A stretch of 64,000 bases of DNA from Acidobacteriaceae bacterium (GTDB taxonomy: Bacteria > Acidobacteriota > Terriglobia > Terriglobales > Acidobacteriaceae): NCBI GenBank assembly GCA_003151335.1, contig PLXE01000092.1, positions 1-64,000 on the forward strand, given 5' to 3'. Both the position numbers and the translations under genes were made by a program. Of the stretch, positions 38,384 through 62,374 are shown piece by piece; within the stretch, counting starts at the first letter, position 1; every line of letters starts with the position of its first letter. A model generated the notes under the pieces. The model was not told the DNA's origin and made no database searches. It worked only from the letters and a program-made list of their open reading frames with translations.

Positions 38384-40054
38384 TTAGCGACTCTGCATTT
38401 CCGCTGGCTCCGCAGCGTCGTTCCAGTCCGTCTCCGATGCCGGGGGGATGAAACTCATCGCGCGTTCCGTCAGGGCGGCGATAGTCAAGCTGGGATTGAC
38501 GCCAAGATTGGCTGCGACCACCGACCCGTCGCAGACATACATGTTCTTATACCCAAAAACGCGGTTGCGATAATCCACCACGCCGTCCTCCGGCGAGCTG
38601 CCGATTACAGCGCCTCCCAGACAGTGGGCGGTACCGGGAACATCGAACAATATTTCCGGCAACATGCTCATCGCCGTGCCGCCGGCAATTCCAGCAAACT
38701 TCTGGGCAAACTCGTTGGCCTGGGGAATGAACGTGGGTACCCGCTGTCCGCGGCTGACCAGAAACTTCCTGAACGGCCAATAGATGTGCCGCTCCCAGCG
38801 CATGTCAATGTGCCCCTCGAGGGCCTGCATACAAAGCAGAATCACCGATTCCTGCGCCCATTTCACGGGTTGGAGGATGCGCAAGGTCTTGAAGGGATGG
38901 CGCAGCAACGCGACAAAGAGATTCCGAATCCAAAGTGCAATCCGCCCCGGGCCGGGACGGCCGCCCGTCAGAATCGTGGCCAGAAGGCCCATAGTGTCCG
39001 AGCCCGCTGGATACCGAACTGCTTCAATGTGGGTGTGCTCATCGATGTAAACCCCCGACCCGATGGCAACCCCTGTGGACAAGTCTTCGCTGGAATTAGG
39101 TATTCGCACCCCGATGAGCGATTCGGAATTGGTGCGCACTCGCCTGCCCAGCTGATCGCTGATCGCCGGCAAAGAGCCTTTTTCTTTCAGATGAAAGAGC
39201 AATTCCATGGTGCCCAGCGACGACGCCGAAAACACTACGCCGCGACAAGTGAAGCGCCTAGGATGCCGGTTGAAGCGGGCCGTGGACTTCACCGTACAAA
39301 CTTCATATCCACCGCTGCCGTCGTTCAGTCCATTGAGCGGCCTGACGTTTACCACTCTTGTCTCCGGGAAAACTTTGGCGCCGTGCTTCTCCGCCAGATA
39401 AAGATAGTTCTGGTCGAGCGTGTTTTTGGCGCCGTGGCGGCAACCCATCATGCAGCCGCCGCAGCCCAGGCAGGTCGTCCGCTCCGGCCCCTCTCCGCCG
39501 AAATAGGGGTCAGGAAACGTCTGCCCACCAGGCTCTCCTTCGGGAGACTGAAAGATAGCGACATGCGTCCGGTAGAACGTGTCTCCGATTCCGGCAGCGT
39601 CGGCAACCTGCTTCAGCAGATGATCGGCAGGCCCGAGGATTTTGTTCTCCGTAACCCCCAGCATTCGCGAAGCCGTCGCGTAATGCCGCGGCATCTCCGC
39701 CTTCCACTCCGCTAAACCTTGCCACGAGCCGCAGTCCCAAACCTTGTCCGGAGGCGGAAGAAGAGTGCAGGCATACGTAATCGATCCGCCGCCTACCGCA
39801 CAGCCGTGCAGAATGGTGACATGCCTGAAATAGCGCATGTTGAAGAAGCCCCGCAGCGCAAGATTAGGGCTCCAAAACCAGCGATGAATGGACCAGCTGG
39901 TACGCGGCAGGTTCTCAGGTGTCCATCGCCGGCCCATTTCCATTACCGCAACCCGGTAGCCTTTCTCCACCAGCCGGTGAGCGGTAACGCTGCCGCCAAA
40001 ACCTGAGCCGATCACGATGAAGTCAAAATCCCATTCGCCGTTGTGAGACGGCAT
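38384..40054 (-). CDS. GMC oxidoreductase (cholesterol-oxidase-like)
   Basis: A 556-residue FAD-dependent oxidoreductase. The dinucleotide fold IVIGSGFGGSVTA is at 13-25. A cysteine-rich segment, CLGCGGCMMGCRHGAKNT near 192-209, is characteristic of the cholesterol-oxidase-like branch and of some long-chain alcohol oxidases; it may bind a metal or disulfides. The C-terminal GMC motif NLGVNPSLTIAALTERAM is present. Substrate is not clear: sterols, long-chain or cyclic alcohols are possible. It is divergent from adhE across a 307-base gap, which fits a role in alcohol chemistry, but that is inference. Confidence 0.83.
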   Translation of the reverse strand: MPSHNGEWDFDFIVIGSGFGGSVTAHRLVEKGYRVAVMEMGRRWTPENLPRTSWSIHRWFWSPNLALRGFFNMRYFRHVTILHGCAVGGGSITYACTLLPPPDKVWDCGSWQGLAEWKAEMPRHYATASRMLGVTENKILGPADHLLKQVADAAGIGDTFYRTHVAIFQSPEGEPGGQTFPDPYFGGEGPERTTCLGCGGCMMGCRHGAKNTLDQNYLYLAEKHGAKVFPETRVVNVRPLNGLNDGSGGYEVCTVKSTARFNRHPRRFTCRGVVFSASSLGTMELLFHLKEKGSLPAISDQLGRRVRTNSESLIGVRIPNSSEDLSTGVAIGSGVYIDEHTHIEAVRYPAGSDTMGLLATILTGGRPGPGRIALWIRNLFVALLRHPFKTLRILQPVKWAQESVILLCMQALEGHIDMRWERHIYWPFRKFLVSRGQRVPTFIPQANEFAQKFAGIAGGTAMSMLPEILFDVPGTAHCLGGAVIGSSPEDGVVDYRNRVFGYKNMYVCDGSVVAANLGVNPSLTIAALTERAMSFIPPASETDWNDAAEPAEMQSR

Positions 40055-40361: not shown

Positions 40362-43010
40362 ATGGCAGAGATCGTTGCAAGCCTCAGTGAAGAACGGATT
40401 GCTTACCTGGAAGGACTGGTCAGCCAAGCCCGGACCGCGGCCGCCATCTTTACGCAATACACCCAAGAGGACGTCGATCGCATTGTCAAACCCATGGTGC
40501 TGGCTGGACTGGAACAGGCGCAATATCTGGCCCGGCTTGCCATTGAGGAAACCCGGCTTGGGGTTGTGGAAGACAAAGCCCTGAAGAACATGGTGGCCAC
40601 GGAGTTCGTTTACAACTACGTCAAAGACAAACGGACGGTTGGCACCATTCGCGAGTTTCCGGAACGCGGTGTGGTGGAGGTGGCTGAACCCATCGGGGTC
40701 ATCTTTTCGCTCACCCCAATCACGAACCCGACTTCGACCGTCCTGTTCAAATGCATCATGGCCATCAAGACGCGGAACGCGGTCATTTTCAGTCCGCATC
40801 CCAGCGCCGGGCACTGTTGCTACGAGGCGGTGCGGATCATGCATGAGGCGGCGGTGAAGCACGGCGCGCCTGAAGGCGTCTTCACTTGCCTGGAATCGCA
40901 AACTCTTCAGGACAATGCCTACCTGATGCGACACAAGGACGTCGGCCTGATCGATGCCACAGGTGGGCCGGGTATGGTTAAAGCCGCTTATAGCTCCGGC
41001 AAACCGGCCTTGGGTGTAGGTCCGGGCAATACACCGGTCTATCTGGAAAAGACGGCGGACCTGAACATGGCCGTGGTGGACATCATCACTTCGAAGACCT
41101 TCGATAACGGAACCATTTGCGCCTCCGAGCAGACGGTGGTGATCGATGACGAGATTTACGACTCCGTGCTGCAAAAATTTTCGGACCTGGGCGCGCACAT
41201 CTGCAATGAGAAAGAAACGGAACTGCTGGGACGCACTGTGATCGATCCCAAGACGGGATACATGCAGCCTCTGGCAGTCGGTCAGAAGGCCACCGATATC
41301 GCCCGCATGGTTGGCTTGTCGGTCAAGCCGAACACCAAGCTCCTGATTGCGCCGATTCAAGGTGTGGGTCGGGAATATCCACTGTCAGTCGAGAAGCTGT
41401 TCCCCGTGCTCGCCGTTTACCGGGCGAAATCGGTCAATGAGGCGCTCACGGTGTGCGTGGACGTGAATCATGCCGGCGGAATTGGACATACGGCGGTCGT
41501 TTTCTCGCGCAACGACGAGATCATCCAAAAGTTCAGTGAACTGATGAACGCGGGCCGGATCATTGTGAATTCGCCGGGTTCCATCGGAGCGTTGGGTGGC
41601 GTTTACAACGACATGGTGCCCACCTTCTCCTTTGGATGCGGGACCGGTGGGGGCAACAGCACCACCGATAACGTAAATGTGTACAACTACCTCAACATCA
41701 AACGCGTGGCGCGAAGGACGCAAGCCCATATGTGGTTCCGAGTTCCCAATCAGATTTACTTCAACATGAACGCGGTGGAGAACCTGCGCCAGTTCCCATC
41801 GCGCTCCACCGTCATCATCACCAATCCGGCCATGGAACAGATCGGCCATGTGGACACGGTCCGTCGCCACATTCCACCGGAAACTCTGGTCCACGTCTCG
41901 GTCATTCCTGACGCGGAGCCCGAAGTCAAGGTCGTGATGCAAGGAGTGGAGGCGCTCAATTTCTACAAAGCCGACCAAATCATTGCGTTGGGCGGCGGGT
42001 CGGTGATCGACGCGGCGAAAATCATGAAGCTCAAGTACGAATCGCCGGAGGCGGACCTGGAAGAACTGGCCGCGCCCTTTCTGGATCTCCGCAAGCGCGT
42101 GGTCCAGTACCCTACTGAAAAAGTTACCAAGGCGCGTTTGATTGCCATCTCCACCACCAGCGGAACGGGGAGCGAAGTCACGCCGTTTGCCGTCCTGACC
42201 AACAAGCAGCAAGGGCGCAAGGTGACACTCGCGGACTATTCGCTGAGTCCGGATGTAGCGATCGTCGATCCGCAGTTCGTCATGTCAATGCCGAAAGGCC
42301 TGACCGCCGACACCGGCGTTGACTGTTTGACCCACGCCCTGGAAGCCGGAGTGTCGATTTTCGCGTCACCCTACACCGACTCCAACGCCATGCAAGCGAT
42401 TCGCATGGTATTCAAGTTCCTGCCCATCGCTTATGAACATCCCCAGGATGAAGAGGCGCGCACCATGATGCACAATGCCGCCTGCATTGCGGCGATTGCG
42501 TTTTCCAACGCCTCGGTGGGCGTGAATCACGCGCTGGCCCATGCCTTCGGCGCGCGCTTCGGGGTCGCGCACGGTCGCGCCAACGCGCTCATGTTGCCGC
42601 ATGTCATTGCCTTCAATGCGGGCGTGCCGACCAAGTTCATGCCGTCGCCAAACCAGCGGGGATATATCGCGCACAAGAAGTATGCGATGGTGGCCGATCT
42701 GCTCGGCCTGGGCGGTAAGACGATTGAGGAAAAAGTGAAGAACCTGGAGGCGGCGACAGAACGGTTACTCGACCGATTGGCGATCCCGCGTTCCATCGCC
42801 GAGTTGGGGATTTCCAAGGAAGAATTCGAGCGTGCCATGCCCGAGCTGGTCAAGATTGCCTTTGACGATCCTTCCTGGCGATCCAACCCGCGCATGCCGC
42901 TGTTGAGCGAATTGGCCGAGCTGTTTTGGAGCGCTTATCGGGGACGGAGCCTGCCGACCGTGGCTAAGGCATCGCAACCACAAACCGCTGAGGAATGGTC
43001 GTGCGTATGA
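40362..43010 (+). CDS. adhE: Bifunctional aldehyde/alcohol dehydrogenase AdhE
   Basis: An 882-residue fusion that reduces acyl-CoA (usually acetyl-CoA) to aldehyde and then to alcohol with NADH. The aldehyde dehydrogenase half (about 1-440) has the catalytic Cys253 in TICASEQ. The iron-dependent alcohol dehydrogenase half (about 450-870) has GGGSVIDAAK for NAD and the metal ligands in DCLTHALE and NHALAHAFGARFGVAHG. The start ATG has AAAGGAAG just upstream; the frame extending to 40251 is rejected. Its last four bases ATGA overlap the STAS gene start, so the two are coupled. Normal AdhE forms long spirosomes; the linker between domains is intact. Confidence 0.93.
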   Translation: MAEIVASLSEERIAYLEGLVSQARTAAAIFTQYTQEDVDRIVKPMVLAGLEQAQYLARLAIEETRLGVVEDKALKNMVATEFVYNYVKDKRTVGTIREFPERGVVEVAEPIGVIFSLTPITNPTSTVLFKCIMAIKTRNAVIFSPHPSAGHCCYEAVRIMHEAAVKHGAPEGVFTCLESQTLQDNAYLMRHKDVGLIDATGGPGMVKAAYSSGKPALGVGPGNTPVYLEKTADLNMAVVDIITSKTFDNGTICASEQTVVIDDEIYDSVLQKFSDLGAHICNEKETELLGRTVIDPKTGYMQPLAVGQKATDIARMVGLSVKPNTKLLIAPIQGVGREYPLSVEKLFPVLAVYRAKSVNEALTVCVDVNHAGGIGHTAVVFSRNDEIIQKFSELMNAGRIIVNSPGSIGALGGVYNDMVPTFSFGCGTGGGNSTTDNVNVYNYLNIKRVARRTQAHMWFRVPNQIYFNMNAVENLRQFPSRSTVIITNPAMEQIGHVDTVRRHIPPETLVHVSVIPDAEPEVKVVMQGVEALNFYKADQIIALGGGSVIDAAKIMKLKYESPEADLEELAAPFLDLRKRVVQYPTEKVTKARLIAISTTSGTGSEVTPFAVLTNKQQGRKVTLADYSLSPDVAIVDPQFVMSMPKGLTADTGVDCLTHALEAGVSIFASPYTDSNAMQAIRMVFKFLPIAYEHPQDEEARTMMHNAACIAAIAFSNASVGVNHALAHAFGARFGVAHGRANALMLPHVIAFNAGVPTKFMPSPNQRGYIAHKKYAMVADLLGLGGKTIEEKVKNLEAATERLLDRLAIPRSIAELGISKEEFERAMPELVKIAFDDPSWRSNPRMPLLSELAELFWSAYRGRSLPTVAKASQPQTAEEWSCV

Positions 43011-43282
43011 CAAGCAATGGCGAGTGGCTTGAAATTGATGGAGAGCGTGTAGTCCAGGGCTTGCAAGCGGCCCGTGAGGCGCTGGCCAGTGCCCACAGCG
43101 ATGTGGTCCTGGATTTCTCTGCCGTGCGCCGGATCGATCCCAATGCGCTCCGGACGATGGAAAAGCTGGCCGGGTTAGCCGACGGGAAGGCCGTCAAGGT
43201 CGTGTTGCGCGGCGTCAATGTCGATATTTACAAAGTGCTCAAGCTGGTGAAGCTGACGTCGCGATTCTCCTTTCTGGCCTGA
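43007..43282 (+). CDS. STAS-domain protein
   Basis: A 91-residue stand-alone STAS domain like anti-anti-sigma factors (SpoIIAA/RsbV type). The pattern VVLDFSAVRRIDPNALRTMEKLAG covers the signature region. The usual D-S-S-G-L phosphorylation loop is changed: Asp44 is followed by Pro45-Asn46-Ala47-Leu48, so the Ser normally phosphorylated is Pro. It could not be regulated by the standard kinase. The ATG at 43007 overlaps the adhE stop (ATGA). The next gene is a WS/DGAT acyltransferase. I see no anti-sigma kinase nearby. Confidence 0.82.
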   Translation: MTSNGEWLEIDGERVVQGLQAAREALASAHSDVVLDFSAVRRIDPNALRTMEKLAGLADGKAVKVVLRGVNVDIYKVLKLVKLTSRFSFLA

Positions 43283-43297
43283 GGCTTTTGGTGGAAG

Positions 43298-43317
43298 CCT
43301 CCTGCTTCAGCAGGGGG
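43298..43317 (+). promoter_or_regulatory. Intercistronic hairpin between STAS and WS/DGAT genes
   Basis: CCTCCTGC and GCAGGGGG form an 8-base stem with one G-T pair around a TTCA loop. No T run follows, so it is not a classic terminator. It could stabilise or separate the mRNA halves. Confidence 0.45.
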
Positions 43318-43346
43318 AAGCTGGAAGCTTGGAAGAGGTAGCTGCT

Positions 43347-44954
43347 ATGACGAACGGAAACGGGAACAATTCCTTCTCCTGGGGCGATGCGCTGTTTCTG
43401 CATATCGAACGCCCAGGCCAGCCGCTCAATATCGCGGGCGTCAGTATGTTCGAGGGCGAGATAAAGCTCGCGGACCTCCGCGCATTTGTCGAATCGAAGC
43501 TTCCGCTGATTCCCCGCTATCGTCAGCGTGCGGTGCCTTCTCCTTTCGATTTCGGCCTTCCCACTTGGGAGTTCGACCCGCAGTTCGACATTCGGAACCA
43601 CGTTCGAGAAGTGAAACTCAAGCACGGGACGGAGGACGAACTCAAGGCGCTGGCCGGCAAAATCGTGAGCCAGAGCTTGGACCGGCAGCGGCCACTGTGG
43701 GATTTCACTCTGGCGCGTCTGAAAAGTGGGCGCACCGGAATGGTGACTCGAATTCATCACTGCCTGGCGGACGGAATTGCCGGCGTGGGCGCGATGAATG
43801 TCATCCTGGATGCCTCCCCGAACCCGCCTCCGGTCTCGCGGAAGCGATTGAAGGCGACACCTCCTCCGACGCCCAAGGATGCCGGAGCGGCCCTGCTGGA
43901 CGGGCTGGCCAAGTCCTACCTCTCGCTGTTCAACGGGGCACTAACTCTGCATTCGGGACTGATGAACATGGCGGAGCAGGCGGTGGCCGATCCGGCAGGC
44001 GCACCGGCCGAGCTGCTTCGTGTATTGTCTGAGCTGGCTGCGCCGGCGGAGCGGTTGCCTTTCAACGTGATCTGCAACGGGCCGCAGAAGTTTGCCTGGA
44101 CCGAGGTCCCGCTCGCCGACATCAAAGCGATCAAGAACAAGTGCGGAGGGACGGTGAATGATGTCGTCCTGGCGACGGTGACTATGGCGTTTGGCCGTTA
44201 TGTCGCGCACCGCGGCGTTGACCTGACCGGGCGATCGCTGCGAGTTGTGGTTCCGGTAAACGTGCGCGGCAACGGAGATGCCAAGGAACTGGGAAATCAA
44301 ATCTCCTTCGTGCCGGTGCCGCTCCCGCTGGACCTGCGCGATCCCGTGAAGTTGCTGGCCGTGGTGACGGAACGAGTGGAGTTCCTCAAGCACGCGCGGG
44401 CGGCCGAATTTGTCGGCTTACTGGGCGGGCTGTTGGCAACTCTGCCCAATGCTTTCTGGAAAAATATTGGACCCGTGGCCAGCCAACTGCCGCTGAGCCT
44501 GTGCAATATCATTTGTACCAACGTCCCGGGCCCGCAGATACCGCTCTACCTTATGGGGCACAAGATGCTGTCCTGGTATCCGTGGGTGCCGATCGGCGGC
44601 TTGATGGGCATTAATTGCGCCATCCTCACCTATAACGGCACCGCGTTTTTCGGCTTTACCGGCGATGTACACGCGGCGCCCGACCTCGAGCGCCTGGAGA
44701 AGTTCGTGGATGAGAGTTTTGCTGAGTTGCGTGCAGGTGCCGACACCGCAGTGGAAGCCAAGCCGGAGGTGCGCACGCGCGCGCGGCCGCACGCAGAGAT
44801 TCCGGTGGGGCATACGAAGACTCGCCTCTCGAAGAAGCCGACGGTTCGCAGGAAGTCGTCGCCAAAAGGTGCAAGCGCCCAGCCGGGGGCACCGGTTGCG
44901 GCTCCGGCCAAACCGGAGAAGGAGCCGGAGAAAACTGCGGCGGTCGGCGCGTAA
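43347..44954 (+). CDS. Wax ester synthase/diacylglycerol acyltransferase (WS/DGAT)
   Basis: A 535-residue acyltransferase that joins acyl-CoA to fatty alcohols (wax esters) or diacylglycerol (triacylglycerol) for storage lipid. The catalytic HHxxxDG motif is HHCLADG at 137-143. The second conserved PLW motif is at 116-118. The NDVVLA segment near 269 is typical. The C-terminal 75 residues are a Lys/Pro/Ala-rich tail not needed for the fold. The ATG at 43347 has GAGG upstream. It follows adhE and the STAS gene by 64 bases, suggesting that the alcohol may come from AdhE. Confidence 0.9.
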   Translation: MTNGNGNNSFSWGDALFLHIERPGQPLNIAGVSMFEGEIKLADLRAFVESKLPLIPRYRQRAVPSPFDFGLPTWEFDPQFDIRNHVREVKLKHGTEDELKALAGKIVSQSLDRQRPLWDFTLARLKSGRTGMVTRIHHCLADGIAGVGAMNVILDASPNPPPVSRKRLKATPPPTPKDAGAALLDGLAKSYLSLFNGALTLHSGLMNMAEQAVADPAGAPAELLRVLSELAAPAERLPFNVICNGPQKFAWTEVPLADIKAIKNKCGGTVNDVVLATVTMAFGRYVAHRGVDLTGRSLRVVVPVNVRGNGDAKELGNQISFVPVPLPLDLRDPVKLLAVVTERVEFLKHARAAEFVGLLGGLLATLPNAFWKNIGPVASQLPLSLCNIICTNVPGPQIPLYLMGHKMLSWYPWVPIGGLMGINCAILTYNGTAFFGFTGDVHAAPDLERLEKFVDESFAELRAGADTAVEAKPEVRTRARPHAEIPVGHTKTRLSKKPTVRRKSSPKGASAQPGAPVAAPAKPEKEPEKTAAVGA

Positions 44955-45066
44955 CGGGACCTGATTGAGCGCGCTGCAGGCTATTCAACTTCCCGTTCTT
45001 GGTAGGGATGCATCTTGGCAGGGATGCACTTGACACTAACCGTTGCCGCGACCTACCGTGAACGAC

Positions 45067-45312
45067 ATGGATGTGATCCCCATCAAACCGGAACGCAAGG
45101 CCCAACTCGAGGAATACGCGCAGCGTCGCGGGCAGGATCCTGCCACCGCCCTGGATGACGCTCTGGCTGAGTATCTGGAGTGGGAGCGTCAGGATTTTGA
45201 GCAAGCTGTTGAAGGTATCCGGCAGGGCTATGAGGACGTGCAAGCCGGACGCACTCAACCCATCGAGGAAGCATTTGAAGAGTTCCGCCTGAAGCATGGC
45301 CTTCCGCGTTAA
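45067..45312 (+). CDS. ParD-like antitoxin
   Basis: An 81-residue small acidic protein. The N-terminus (IPIKPERKAQLEEYAQRRG) resembles a ribbon-helix-helix DNA-binding domain. The C-terminal half is Glu-rich (EYLEWERQDFEQA, then GRTQPIEEAFEEFRLKHG), as for ParD/RelB-like antitoxins that wrap a toxin. The 3' end overlaps the toxin gene by 17 bases, so they are coupled. GTG or TTG starts upstream are possible. Confidence 0.8.
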   Translation: MDVIPIKPERKAQLEEYAQRRGQDPATALDDALAEYLEWERQDFEQAVEGIRQGYEDVQAGRTQPIEEAFEEFRLKHGLPR

Positions 45313-45610
45313 AACCACTGCCCAAGCAAAGCGGGATTTGGACGACATCCTGGAGCGGCTGTTGTCGCAAGAGGCGGGAGAAACCGGATTGCGCTGGTTT
45401 CAGGGATTGCACCAGGCCGTCGCAACCCTAGCTGATTCTCCCCAACGCTGTGCCTTGGCTCCCGAGAGTGCCGTCTTCCCCTTCGAGGTGCGGCATCTGC
45501 TCTGCGGGCGCAGGCCCCATGTCTACCGAATTATCTTCACCATTGAAGGCAACACGGTGTCCGTTCTACATGTCCGCCATGGACGCCGCCAGCCAATCGC
45601 CAAGCCTTGA
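45296..45610 (+). CDS. ParE/RelE family toxin
   Basis: A 104-residue toxin of the ParE/RelE superfamily. The fold pattern is present: TAQAKRDLDDILERLLSQ as the helical pair, then VRHLLCGRRPHVYRIIFTIEGNTVSVLHVRHGRRQ for the beta sheet. ParE members poison DNA gyrase, RelE members cleave mRNA; ParE is favoured by the helix pattern. The short overlap with the antitoxin is the usual arrangement. Confidence 0.85.
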   Translation: MAFRVKTTAQAKRDLDDILERLLSQEAGETGLRWFQGLHQAVATLADSPQRCALAPESAVFPFEVRHLLCGRRPHVYRIIFTIEGNTVSVLHVRHGRRQPIAKP

Positions 45611-59982: not shown

Positions 59983-60075
59983 CTATGTAGTCTTCGTGAC
60001 ATGCGGCGGACTGCTCCGTCGCATTTTCATCGCGCCAATCAGTTCCACTTCGGAACTAGACTGTCACCTCTGCGT

Positions 60076-60104
60076 TTCCCATCCTCGCGCCACTCATTTA
60101 TACT
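60076..60104 (+). promoter_or_regulatory. Candidate etfB promoter
   Basis: TTCCCA (60076-60081) and TATACT (60099-60104) with 17 bases between, 54 bases before the GTG start. Good -10 and 4 of 6 at the -35. Confidence 0.5.
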
Positions 60105-60157
60105 TGCCCGTTTCACGGTATGCGCTCGGAGCATTCCGTGGAGCGTTAGGAGCCCTG

Positions 60158-60928
60158 GTGAAGATCCTGGTCTGCATGAAGCAGGTCCCGCAGAAAGACG
60201 CGCCGCTCAAGCTGAATGAGGGCGGCACGTGGATTCGCGAAGATGTTTCCTATGAAGTGAACGAGCCCGACGCTTACGCTCTGGAAGAGGCGCTGCGACA
60301 GAGAGAGAAGCACGGCGGCGAGGTGGTGGCGATCACCGGCGGCCCGCCCCGCGCGCAGCAGGTTTTGCGCGAGGCGCTGGCCAAGGGGGCCGACCGCGCC
60401 ATTCACCTGGAAGGCGACGGCTTCGTTACCCTCGACGCGTTCAACACTGCGAAGGCCTTCGCCGCGGCCATCAAGGACGAGAGCTTCGATCTCATCTTCA
60501 CCGGCTTGCAGTCCGACGATTACGGCTTTGCCCAGACCGGCGTCATTCTGGCTGAGCTGCTGGGCTGGCCGCACGCCACCATCATCATGCAAATCGAAAA
60601 GAGCGATAGCGGCATTCGCGTGAAACGCGAACTCGAGGCAGGCTTCTTCCAGTTTGTCGAGATGCCGCTGCCGGCGCTGCTGACCATCCAGTCGGGCATC
60701 AACAAATTACGTTATGCGACCTTGATCGGCATTAAGCAGGCGAAGAACAAGCCGCTCAAGAAAGTGAGCTTTGACGAAGTCAAGCCGGCGCTCGGCGAAA
60801 ACTTGCAGAGGATCGAGAAGCTGTACATCCCGCAGAAGACCAAGAAGACCGAAGTGCTGGAAGGTCCGCCGGGAGAGATCGCCAAGAAATTGGTGGACAA
60901 GCTGCGCAACGAGCTGCGCGTGATCTAA
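60158..60928 (+). CDS. etfB: Electron transfer flavoprotein beta subunit
   Basis: The 256-residue AMP-binding subunit of ETF (FixA type), which with EtfA takes electrons from acyl-CoA and related dehydrogenases. The GTG start at 60158 has AGGAG six bases upstream. The opening VKILVCMKQVPQKDAPLKL is the family start. Residues for AMP binding and the recognition loop near 190-200 (ELEAGFFQFVEMPLPALLTIQSGINK) are present. The longer upstream frame is not coding. etfA is 453 bases away with a small membrane gene in between. Confidence 0.92.
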   Translation: MKILVCMKQVPQKDAPLKLNEGGTWIREDVSYEVNEPDAYALEEALRQREKHGGEVVAITGGPPRAQQVLREALAKGADRAIHLEGDGFVTLDAFNTAKAFAAAIKDESFDLIFTGLQSDDYGFAQTGVILAELLGWPHATIIMQIEKSDSGIRVKRELEAGFFQFVEMPLPALLTIQSGINKLRYATLIGIKQAKNKPLKKVSFDEVKPALGENLQRIEKLYIPQKTKKTEVLEGPPGEIAKKLVDKLRNELRVI

Positions 60929-61050
60929 GGCGTATTCGAGCGGCCCTGGCCGCCTGATCGTCCGCAGGTGCAAGGTCGCCACCGGGCTTGAAAGTTTGGC
61001 TGTCAGTGAATTGGCAAGTCGGCGCCCGCGGCGGCGGGTAGGAGGCGACC

Positions 61051-61260
61051 ATGCCATCGTCAGAAGAGAAACGTGAAACCGGCTCAGCCTTCGTGATCAT
61101 TGGCTGGGTGCTGGTGCTGTTTGCATTCCTAGTCATGTTCTTTCAGCCGGCGGCACGCAAGCTGGGGGAGACACGGTTTGAGATCATCGCAGGCGTGCTG
61201 GTCGCCGTGGGTCTGCTGTTGAATATCGTCGGCGCTCGCATAAGACGCCGCAATCGCTGA
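61051..61260 (+). CDS. Small two-helix membrane protein
   Basis: A 69-residue protein with two membrane helices (about 12-32 and 43-62), a short acidic N-terminus and a basic C-terminus (RIRRRNR). It has an AGGAGG site just before the ATG and lies between etfB and etfA on the same strand. A role in anchoring ETF or ETF-QO at the membrane is only a guess. Confidence 0.7.
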   Translation: MPSSEEKRETGSAFVIIGWVLVLFAFLVMFFQPAARKLGETRFEIIAGVLVAVGLLLNIVGARIRRRNR

Positions 61261-61314
61261 AGCGGCGGCGACGTATGCGCGCAGCTGGAACATGCTGCGG
61301 AAAAAGTCGGAAAA

Positions 61315-61352
61315 GCAGATCCCTCACCGACTAAAGTCGGTTCGGGATGACA
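61315..61352. repeat. Dispersed element, copy 3
   Basis: Reads GCAGATCCCTCACCGACTAA then AGTCGGTTCGGGATGACA and AT. A 6-base inverted repeat (CCGACT-AA-AGTCGG) fills the middle. It lies 30 bases before etfA. It shares GCAGATCCCTC and CGGGATGACAATA with copy 2. Confidence 0.65.
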
Positions 61353-61381
61353 ATAATAAAGGCAGATAAGATCGGATCGAA

Positions 61382-62374
61382 ATGGCAGATACCATCCTGG
61401 TTGTAGTAGAGCAACGCGAAGGCAAGCTGAATCGTGTTTCCTGGGAGACCATCACCGGAGCGCAGGCGATCGCCGCTGAAACCGGCTGGACGCTGGAAGC
61501 GGCCGTAGCTGGCAGCGGCGTGGGCGACATCGCCAAAGAAATCGCCGCGACAAAAGTGTCGAAGGTGTACGACCTCGAGTCGGCCAAGCTGGAGCCGTAC
61601 ACCCCCGATGGCTTTGTGGCCGCGCTGAAACCGTTCCTCGAGCAGAAACAGCCCAAGCTCGTATTGATGCCGCACACCTACCAGGTGCGCGACTTCGCTC
61701 CCAAGCTGGCTGCCGCTTTGAATCGCACGCTCATCAGCGATGCCGTCGGCTACAAGTATGAGGGCGGCAACCTGCGGTTCACACGCCAGATGTTCCAGGG
61801 AAAGTTCGCCGCCGACGTGTCGTTCGTTGGTGGTCCTCCGTACTTCGCGACCTTCCAGAATGGTGCATTCCGTGCCGACCAGATCGTACAAGGGGACGCA
61901 GCCGCGCCGGTGGAAACCGTTAATCTCGACGTGGCCGACGGTGTGGTGCGCAATAAACCCGAGGCCCCGTTCAAAGAGGCGAAGCAGGCAGTCGATCTAA
62001 CCCAGGCCCAGGTCATTGTCGCTGTTGGCCGCGGTATCAAGGAGCAGAAGAACATTGCACTTGCTCAGCAGTTGGCCGACGCGCTGGGCGGCGAGATCGC
62101 GGCGTCACGCCCGATTTGCGATGCCGGTTGGCTGCCCATGGAGCGTCAGGTCGGATCTTCTGGACAGACCGTCGCACCCAAGCTGTATCTCGCGCTGGGA
62201 ATCAGCGGTGCGATTCAGCACGTGGTGGGGATGAAAGGCGCGCGTACTATTATTGCCGTCAACAAAGACGCAGAGGCGCCAATCTTTGAAATCGCCGATG
62301 TCGCCGTGGTCGGCAATCTGTTCGATATCGTTCCACCCCTGATCGAAGAAGTGAAAAAAACGAAAGGCGCTTAG
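61382..62374 (+). CDS. etfA: Electron transfer flavoprotein alpha subunit
   Basis: The 330-residue FAD-binding subunit (FixB type). FAD contacts are in the C-terminal domain: ERQVGSSGQTVAPKLYLALGISGAIQH and the IIAVNKDAEAPIF segment. N-terminal domain about 1-180 pairs with EtfB. It follows the small membrane gene and one copy of the dispersed repeat. A strong hairpin terminator follows the stop. Confidence 0.94.
   Translation: MADTILVVVEQREGKLNRVSWETITGAQAIAAETGWTLEAAVAGSGVGDIAKEIAATKVSKVYDLESAKLEPYTPDGFVAALKPFLEQKQPKLVLMPHTYQVRDFAPKLAAALNRTLISDAVGYKYEGGNLRFTRQMFQGKFAADVSFVGGPPYFATFQNGAFRADQIVQGDAAAPVETVNLDVADGVVRNKPEAPFKEAKQAVDLTQAQVIVAVGRGIKEQKNIALAQQLADALGGEIAASRPICDAGWLPMERQVGSSGQTVAPKLYLALGISGAIQHVVGMKGARTIIAVNKDAEAPIFEIADVAVVGNLFDIVPPLIEEVKKTKGA

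Follow-up and report, generated by a model that had tools for sequence, protein, structure and literature searches.

A conserved AdhE-STAS-WS/DGAT gene set of Acidobacteriaceae as a candidate storage-lipid module for redox balance

Background

The formation of wax esters in bacteria like Marinobacter and Acinetobacter proceeds in two steps: a fatty acyl-CoA reductase (FAR) converts acyl-CoA to an alcohol, which is then turned into an ester by a wax ester synthase/diacylglycerol acyltransferase (WS/DGAT). In Pseudomonadota a FAR of the short-chain dehydrogenase/reductase (SDR) type can adjoin ws/dgat, according to a passage of a survey of WS/DGAT gene clusters, another passage of which describes the storage of neutral lipids as unexplored in Acidobacteriota (both PMC10351704). 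Here, we analyze a stretch of 64,000 nucleotides from an Acidobacteriaceae bacterium (assembly GCA_003151335.1, contig PLXE01000092.1, positions 1 to 64,000), hereafter 'the window', on which the genes for the bifunctional dehydrogenase AdhE, a STAS domain protein and a WS/DGAT follow each other, next to a gene for a GMC-family oxidoreductase. As in the FAR route, acyl-CoA could be converted to an alcohol that is esterified by WS/DGAT, but the putative alcohol-former belongs to another protein family, and the STAS protein and the GMC enzyme are added.

The nearest physiological analogue is the anaerobic wax ester fermentation of Euglena, a mitochondrial process of a eukaryote that involves rhodoquinone, a trans-2-enoyl-CoA reductase and a FAR instead of AdhE. 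A section of PMC6334954 describes wax ester as the anaerobic product and, citing Nakazawa et al., reports an acyl-CoA dehydrogenase and an electron transfer flavoprotein (Etf) in the reverse beta-oxidation. Judged by the genes alone, candidate counterparts of the acyl-CoA dehydrogenase, the Etf, the quinone link, the alcohol-forming reductase and the wax synthase are encoded in the Acidobacteriaceae genome, but with AdhE as the putative reductase and a DUF224-type protein as the putative quinone link. The operon of the latter (see below) has the same parts list as the butyryl-CoA dehydrogenase/EtfAB/DUF224 system of Syntrophomonas wolfei, for which an exchange of electrons with menaquinone has been proposed (a passage in PMC3582634). 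Unlike that system, the Acidobacteriaceae operon is tied to AdhE and WS/DGAT, and the reaction with quinone is a prediction. With the AdhE of ethanol fermentation in E. coli and Clostridia the protein shares the fusion of a CoA-acylating aldehyde dehydrogenase and an iron alcohol dehydrogenase; in contrast to these, it is always accompanied by WS/DGAT (18 of 18 genomes of the family), and mostly by the STAS protein (16/18) and the DUF224-type protein (17/18). Finally, alcohol formation is coupled to a wax synthase in engineered microdiesel production. AdhE has also been used to close a reverse beta-oxidation at C4 alcohols (PMC9160091). Both are laboratory constructs, whereas the Acidobacteriaceae set is natural and conserved. 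Each protein comes from a known family, while the combination of AdhE, WS/DGAT, STAS, GMC and a DUF224-Etf operon appears to be new; no report of it was found in the open-licence literature.

Results and discussion

The adhE-STAS-WS/DGAT locus

An earlier note on the window had described an adhE-STAS-WS/DGAT gene set with an ATGA overlap, and this set is real. The adhE gene (40362-43010, + strand, starting at ATG 40362) encodes a CoA-acylating aldehyde/iron alcohol dehydrogenase of 882 amino acids. The gene of the stand-alone STAS domain protein (43007-43282, + strand, 91 amino acids) starts with an ATG at 43007 that shares ATGA with the adhE stop; an alternative in-frame ATG at 42995 is possible. 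After a gap of 64 nt follows the gene of the WS/DGAT-type O-acyltransferase (43347-44954, + strand, 535 amino acids). Its best start is ATG 43347, with GAGG ahead, and the reading frame itself opens earlier at TTG 43329. We found no terminator-like site between the three genes; a promoter scan returned no sigma-70-like site, which is uninformative because 3.0 sites were expected by chance. Divergent from adhE lies the gene of a cholesterol-oxidase-like GMC-family FAD oxidoreductase (38384-40054, - strand). The genome that contains the window (4.65 Mb in 121 contigs; 'the own genome' below) has a single match each for WS/DGAT, for GMC and for a full-length AdhE. The window WS/DGAT is also its sole PF03007 match, and the remaining six AdhE matches are weak (20-30% identity).

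All four proteins scored above the cut-offs of family models. AdhE reached 1139 bits against NF010378 (cut-off 951) and combines PF00171, PF00465 and PF25137, with the aldehyde dehydrogenase and iron alcohol dehydrogenase halves fused. The closest solved structures by sequence are AdhE structures (8uhw, 751 bits). Its motifs GTICASEQ (from residue 250), GVDCLTH (652), ALAHAFG (724) and VAHG (735) presumably represent the active-site cysteine and the metal-ligand sites of the iron alcohol dehydrogenase. WS/DGAT scored 351.5 bits against TIGR02946 (cut-off 309.95) and has intact motifs PLW (116), HHCLADG (137, matching HHxxxDG) and ND (271), the columns of which are invariant across 18 aligned sequences, the window's included. 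The GMC enzyme reached 904.9 bits against the cholesterol-oxidase equivalog NF058674 (cut-off 850) and retains H477 and N520 at the His and Asn positions of cholesterol oxidase, which we take to be the catalytic residues. The STAS protein scored 31.2 bits against PF13466 (cut-off 29.2), and was over the cut-off of PF01740 as well.

Conservation of the gene order

An alignment scan of named genomes with WS/DGAT yielded 50 related loci; with the addition of L203, 51 loci were scored over up to 10 kb on each side. These represent 48 genomes (the pairs L160/L161, L125/L169 and L162/L171 each come from one genome); contig ends truncate some of the loci, which makes the counts lower bounds. All of the 50 loci are titled Acidobacteriota or a group within that phylum (Acidobacteriaceae, Acidobacteriales, Terriglobia, Terriglobales, Candidatus Sulfotelmatobacter), and the record titles include samples from palsa, bog, fen, pasture and groundwater. 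We found AdhE, STAS and WS/DGAT consecutively and on one strand in 31 of the 51 loci. Taken singly, AdhE was present at 34 loci, STAS at 32 and GMC at 20. The nearest relative of the window among the loci is L123 (WS/DGAT 90% and AdhE 97% identical). Deviations from the order include L136, where AdhE-STAS is divergent from WS/DGAT, and L155 and L203, where AdhE is present but no STAS was detected.

The position of the GMC gene varies. It is divergent from adhE, as in the window, in two of the 50 loci (L123 and L124), and lies upstream of adhE and co-directional with it, at around 250-600 nt, in seven (L137, L140, L142, L143, L147, L155 and L156). The ATGA overlap was present in the nearest relatives of the window (L123, L124 and L169) and perhaps in L154, with gaps of around 19-122 nt (as measured from alignment ends) in its place in the remaining loci. 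As a general mark of translational coupling the overlap was therefore rejected.

Co-occurrence across the family

We surveyed 100 genomes of the family and found WS/DGAT in 21 of them. AdhE of the window type (at least 78% identity; in three cases in pieces at contig ends) occurred in 18 genomes, all among these 21, and in none of the 79 genomes lacking WS/DGAT. GMC (at least 69% identity) was present in 19 genomes, namely in 18 of the 21 WS/DGAT bearers and in one of the 79 others (G046). The STAS gene was recovered from 16 genomes, all of them AdhE bearers, and always immediately 3' of adhE; no STAS was detected in the AdhE genomes G032 and G042, in the latter at a contig end. Fisher tests on the 100 genomes, in which kinship is not considered, gave values of 4e-17 for WS/DGAT with AdhE and 8e-16 for WS/DGAT with GMC.

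Kinship was taken into account by means of a quick single-gene tree, built from RpoB pieces of 80 of the genomes and covering 18 of the 21 with WS/DGAT. Of the remainder, 12 gave no match to RpoB and eight, among which the module bearers G051, G071 and G096, had only pieces that were left out of the tree. On this tree, WS/DGAT required a minimum of 10 state changes and AdhE of 11. A comparison of four-state dependent and independent models of evolution, made with our own script, showed that the gain and loss of WS/DGAT and AdhE are correlated (likelihood ratio 54.3, p 5e-11); the likelihood ratio was 55.1 for WS/DGAT with GMC and 53.0 for AdhE with STAS. Congeners can differ in all four genes: G028 and G084 bear them all, while their respective congeners G093 (95% complete) and G009 (88% complete) bear none. 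Moreover, AdhE and WS/DGAT are located on different contigs in G063, G049, G069, G075 and G096, neither of them beside the other's place, and 33 kb apart in G032. At least six of the 18 AdhE genomes thus keep both genes unlinked, so the pairing is not accounted for by linkage alone; this weakens the view that the genes co-occur only because they are physically linked.

Outside the family, no such AdhE, STAS or GMC was found near WS/DGAT in the 26 genomes examined out of 54 with WS/DGAT (25 with flanks of around 1.5 kb and 12, one of them additional, with stretches of up to 19 kb), and a phylum-wide AdhE-WS/DGAT system was thus not found within this sample. The lack of these neighbours could be taken to mean that the arrangement in the family is due to chance, or was inherited without any functional meaning. 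Considering that 31 of 51 loci keep the order, that gains and losses of the genes are correlated over 10 to 11 state changes on the tree, and that the pair is retained unlinked, this is hardly credible; the first two of these points led us to reject chance adjacency. A common function of AdhE, STAS, WS/DGAT and GMC is well supported. The claim of the earlier note that the first three form one functional unit, with GMC as a partner, has therefore gained strong support from the conserved order and from co-occurrence that persists without linkage.

A DUF224-EtfBA-dehydrogenase operon co-occurs with AdhE

Recurrent neighbours were identified by clustering the open reading frames around the 50 loci and further relatives. 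One of them encodes a DUF224-type membrane Fe-S protein of around 705 amino acids, with N-terminal hydrophobic segments within residues 19-190, a CCG (DUF224) domain (PF02754, 91.2 bits), Fer4 matches and the sequence CX2CX2CX3C twice (two 4Fe-4S motifs). In 20 of the 51 loci the gene starts less than 400 nt 3' of WS/DGAT, and EtfB, EtfA and an acyl-CoA dehydrogenase of about 564-576 amino acids generally come next. The order DUF224-EtfB-EtfA-dehydrogenase was observed in eight of nine stretches, that of the own genome included; the ninth is truncated inside EtfA by the end of the contig. In the own genome the operon is complete and tight, and is located on another contig than the window (C73, L341:6143-11801, - strand). 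A second EtfBA pair, present at one end of the window (59996-62374, + strand), is a different one, at 35-40% identity.

A search across the 100 genomes at E 1e-30 recovered the DUF224-type gene (at least 51% identity; in two pieces in G096) from 17 genomes, all of which bear AdhE, with G075 as the only one of the 18 AdhE genomes that lacks it. It was found in none of the 82 genomes without AdhE, where matches are 30-36% identical, and the three WS/DGAT genomes without AdhE (G078, G038 and G015) lack it too. Judged by this distribution the operon belongs to the same gene set as AdhE and WS/DGAT. The set is larger than the unit described in the earlier note, to whose author this operon was not visible. 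A role in redox balance can be argued, because the DUF224-Etf branch follows AdhE (17 of 18 bearers) more closely than WS/DGAT (17 of 21).

The tighter association with AdhE would also fit a mainly reversed flow, in which AdhE, together with GMC, would oxidise ethanol or alcohols of greater length to acyl-CoA. EtfBA, the dehydrogenase and the DUF224 protein would take part in the elongation or beta-oxidation of this acyl-CoA, and WS/DGAT would store the acyl groups. Such a scheme can be likened to the ethanol-driven chain elongation of Clostridium kluyveri, and agrees with the co-occurrence of a GMC enzyme from an oxidase-type family and with the lipase- and acyl-CoA-ligase-like neighbours described below. 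We consider it distinctly improbable, given that the annotated recurrent neighbours (clusters 2, 5, 20 and rarer ones fall outside these) include no thiolase, hydratase or hydroxyacyl-CoA dehydrogenase, and that WS/DGAT as the immediate partner suggests storage.

A proposed storage-lipid module for redox balance

We consider it an even call whether the operon of the window is the core of a Terriglobales storage-lipid module for redox balance, in which AdhE takes the usual place of the FAR. In such a module AdhE would use NADH to convert acyl-CoA to an alcohol, which WS/DGAT would join with a second acyl-CoA into a neutral ester. The DUF224-EtfB-EtfA-dehydrogenase operon, whether separate or downstream, would put the acyl-CoA/enoyl-CoA couple in contact with the quinone pool. 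During a shortage of electron acceptors, surplus reductant and carbon could be stored as ester; once acceptors are back, a lipase would free the ester, AdhE and GMC would retake the alcohol, and the acyl-CoA could be oxidised through the route from dehydrogenase via Etf to the membrane. The hand-over of the alcohol, the direction of the pathway, the chain length, and the roles of STAS and GMC are parts of this scheme that we infer. A Euglena-like variant, a bacterial wax ester fermentation under oxygen limitation, seems unlikely. In that case the dehydrogenase-EtfBA-DUF224 branch would run toward enoyl-CoA reduction, AdhE would make the alcohol with NADH, and the electrons would be locked in wax ester, a fermentation product retained inside the cell as a rechargeable redox store.

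An alcohol-to-ester route, as suggested in the earlier note, is plausible because the own genome has no strong FAR match. The best PF07993 matches reached 68 bits, LuxC-type reductases not having been searched, and are read as generic SDR-type reductases, since the model has matches in 14 of 14 control genomes. A dedicated FAR as alcohol source is thus absent at FAR-like score from the own genome and present in 10 of 21 relatives, as set out next. Besides the conserved order, the correlated gain and loss and the DUF224-Etf operon, the module draws support from the recurrent phasin-, PhaR- and lipase-like neighbours (see below) and from the upregulation of AdhE, among other genes, in anoxic microcosms of Acidobacteria from peatland, which are not necessarily Acidobacteriaceae (PMC6018796).

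Several observations weigh against the proposed module. A strong FAR homologue (PF07993, 177-191 bits) occurs in 10 of the 21 WS/DGAT genomes, and AdhE therefore need not be the alcohol source there; these FAR-like genes possibly serve an ether-lipid or wax route. The strict pairing test on well supported branches, with four WS/DGAT-AdhE pairs (concordant 3.9 on average, discordant 0), gave a p of 0.125. PhaR- and phasin-like neighbours (see below) may point to polyester storage, and no product, transcript or enzyme measurement was found for the gene set. The other adverse points speak for a serious, if less probable, rival: AdhE performs plain ethanol fermentation and WS/DGAT makes triacylglycerol from diacylglycerol, the two being in one operon because both would serve surplus carbon and NADH at low oxygen, without any alcohol being passed. 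Three of the 21 WS/DGAT genomes (those listed above as lacking the DUF224-type gene too) do without this AdhE, triacylglycerol is a common product of WS/DGAT enzymes, and AdhE scores as an ordinary acetyl-CoA/ethanol enzyme, over the curated acetaldehyde/ethanol equivalog cut-off. In one section of PMC6018796 an acidobacterial AdhE is interpreted as ethanol-forming. Mere co-regulation, however, poorly accounts for the absence of the window-type AdhE from all 79 genomes without WS/DGAT and for a pair that is kept unlinked. In addition, AdhEs of 43-44% identity are present in G019, G083 and G089, which lack WS/DGAT, so that AdhE as such is not in need of WS/DGAT.

If AdhE does form ethanol, this ethanol could itself be esterified with fatty acyl-CoA by WS/DGAT. 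The resulting fatty acid ethyl esters would be nature's parallel to engineered microdiesel. The AdhE is of the ethanol type, as this would require, but bacterial wax synthases have a low affinity for ethanol and we know of no natural storage of ethyl esters, and we regard this outcome as very improbable. In its favor, wax synthases are promiscuous, accept short alcohols and have already been used for the production of ethyl esters, as stated in a passage of PMC6610577.

Acidobacteriota are abundant in soil and peat, and the conserved set suggests that those bearing it may maintain a redox-balancing lipid store. The module is a concrete hypothesis, in which AdhE, usually read as an ethanol enzyme, would feed or drain a lipid store. 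If true, the fermentative capacity and carbon storage of these Acidobacteriota are mis-annotated, and wax ester formation can begin from AdhE rather than from a dedicated FAR.

The STAS protein

The predicted fold of the STAS protein (pLDDT 92.2) resembles the STAS domains of anti-sigma antagonists, of MlaB and of SLC26/SulP transporters; a structure search also found a resemblance to the complex of the YchM STAS domain with ACP (3ny7). The column after the DSSG-type Asp, the place of the phosphorylatable Ser in anti-sigma factor antagonists like SpoIIAA and RsbV, contained Ser in one of 16 STAS sequences and the next column in six, and a canonical phospho-switch is thus not supported. As the C-terminal stretch is strongly conserved and AdhE is the neighbour, the data suggest a partner of AdhE rather than a sigma-factor switch. 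Within the proposed module the protein would probably act as a regulator or adaptor of AdhE.

The storage neighbourhood

Many of the 51 loci contained a phasin-like gene (34), a PhaR-like gene (34) and a lipase-like alpha/beta-hydrolase gene (32). Further recurrent neighbours are acyl-CoA ligases, a FadE-type dehydrogenase and patatin-like genes. Together they would suit ester droplets as well as polyester granules. In the 12 outside-family genomes with longer stretches, a hydrolase gene is found directly 3' of WS/DGAT in eight and a PhaR-like gene in six, without AdhE or STAS, and the storage neighbourhood therefore looks older than the insertion of AdhE-STAS. The PhaR-like proteins reached 93 bits against PF07879, yet stay under the NCBIfam PhaR cut-off. 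The phasin label rests on repeat character and weak matches, because the family is below the Pfam cut-offs (14.5 against 25.7 bits for the first member; 14 of 16 members matched PF09712, with a best E of 3e-4, and six of 16 matched PF09361, with a best E of 0.002) and its predicted model, all-helical, is of low confidence (pLDDT 45). No match to the phasin-, PhaR- and lipase-like genes was obtained in the window at E 1e-8, the rest of the own genome not having been searched.

Other features

An uncharacterised 128-amino-acid protein (L133:6500-6886, + strand, and homologues) is found in 23 of the 51 loci, often encoded directly upstream of adhE; it was not found in the window. The last 70 or so residues of WS/DGAT form an Ala/Pro/Lys-rich tail that is variable among relatives and, we assume, reminiscent of the tails of granule-bound proteins. 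A FAR-like protein at L224:715-3114 (+ strand), from one of the 10 WS/DGAT genomes with a strong FAR homologue, has HAD, NAD_binding_4 (PF07993) and Sterile (PF03015) domains and is followed by a second FAR-like match. Directly 3' of WS/DGAT, the window carries a RelB/ParE-like toxin-antitoxin pair (45043-45610) with no matches in the 50 related loci. At the window end opposite to the second EtfBA pair, genes for a FabD-type acyl-transferase-domain protein and a PlsX-type FA_synthesis protein are found (634-2742, - strand).

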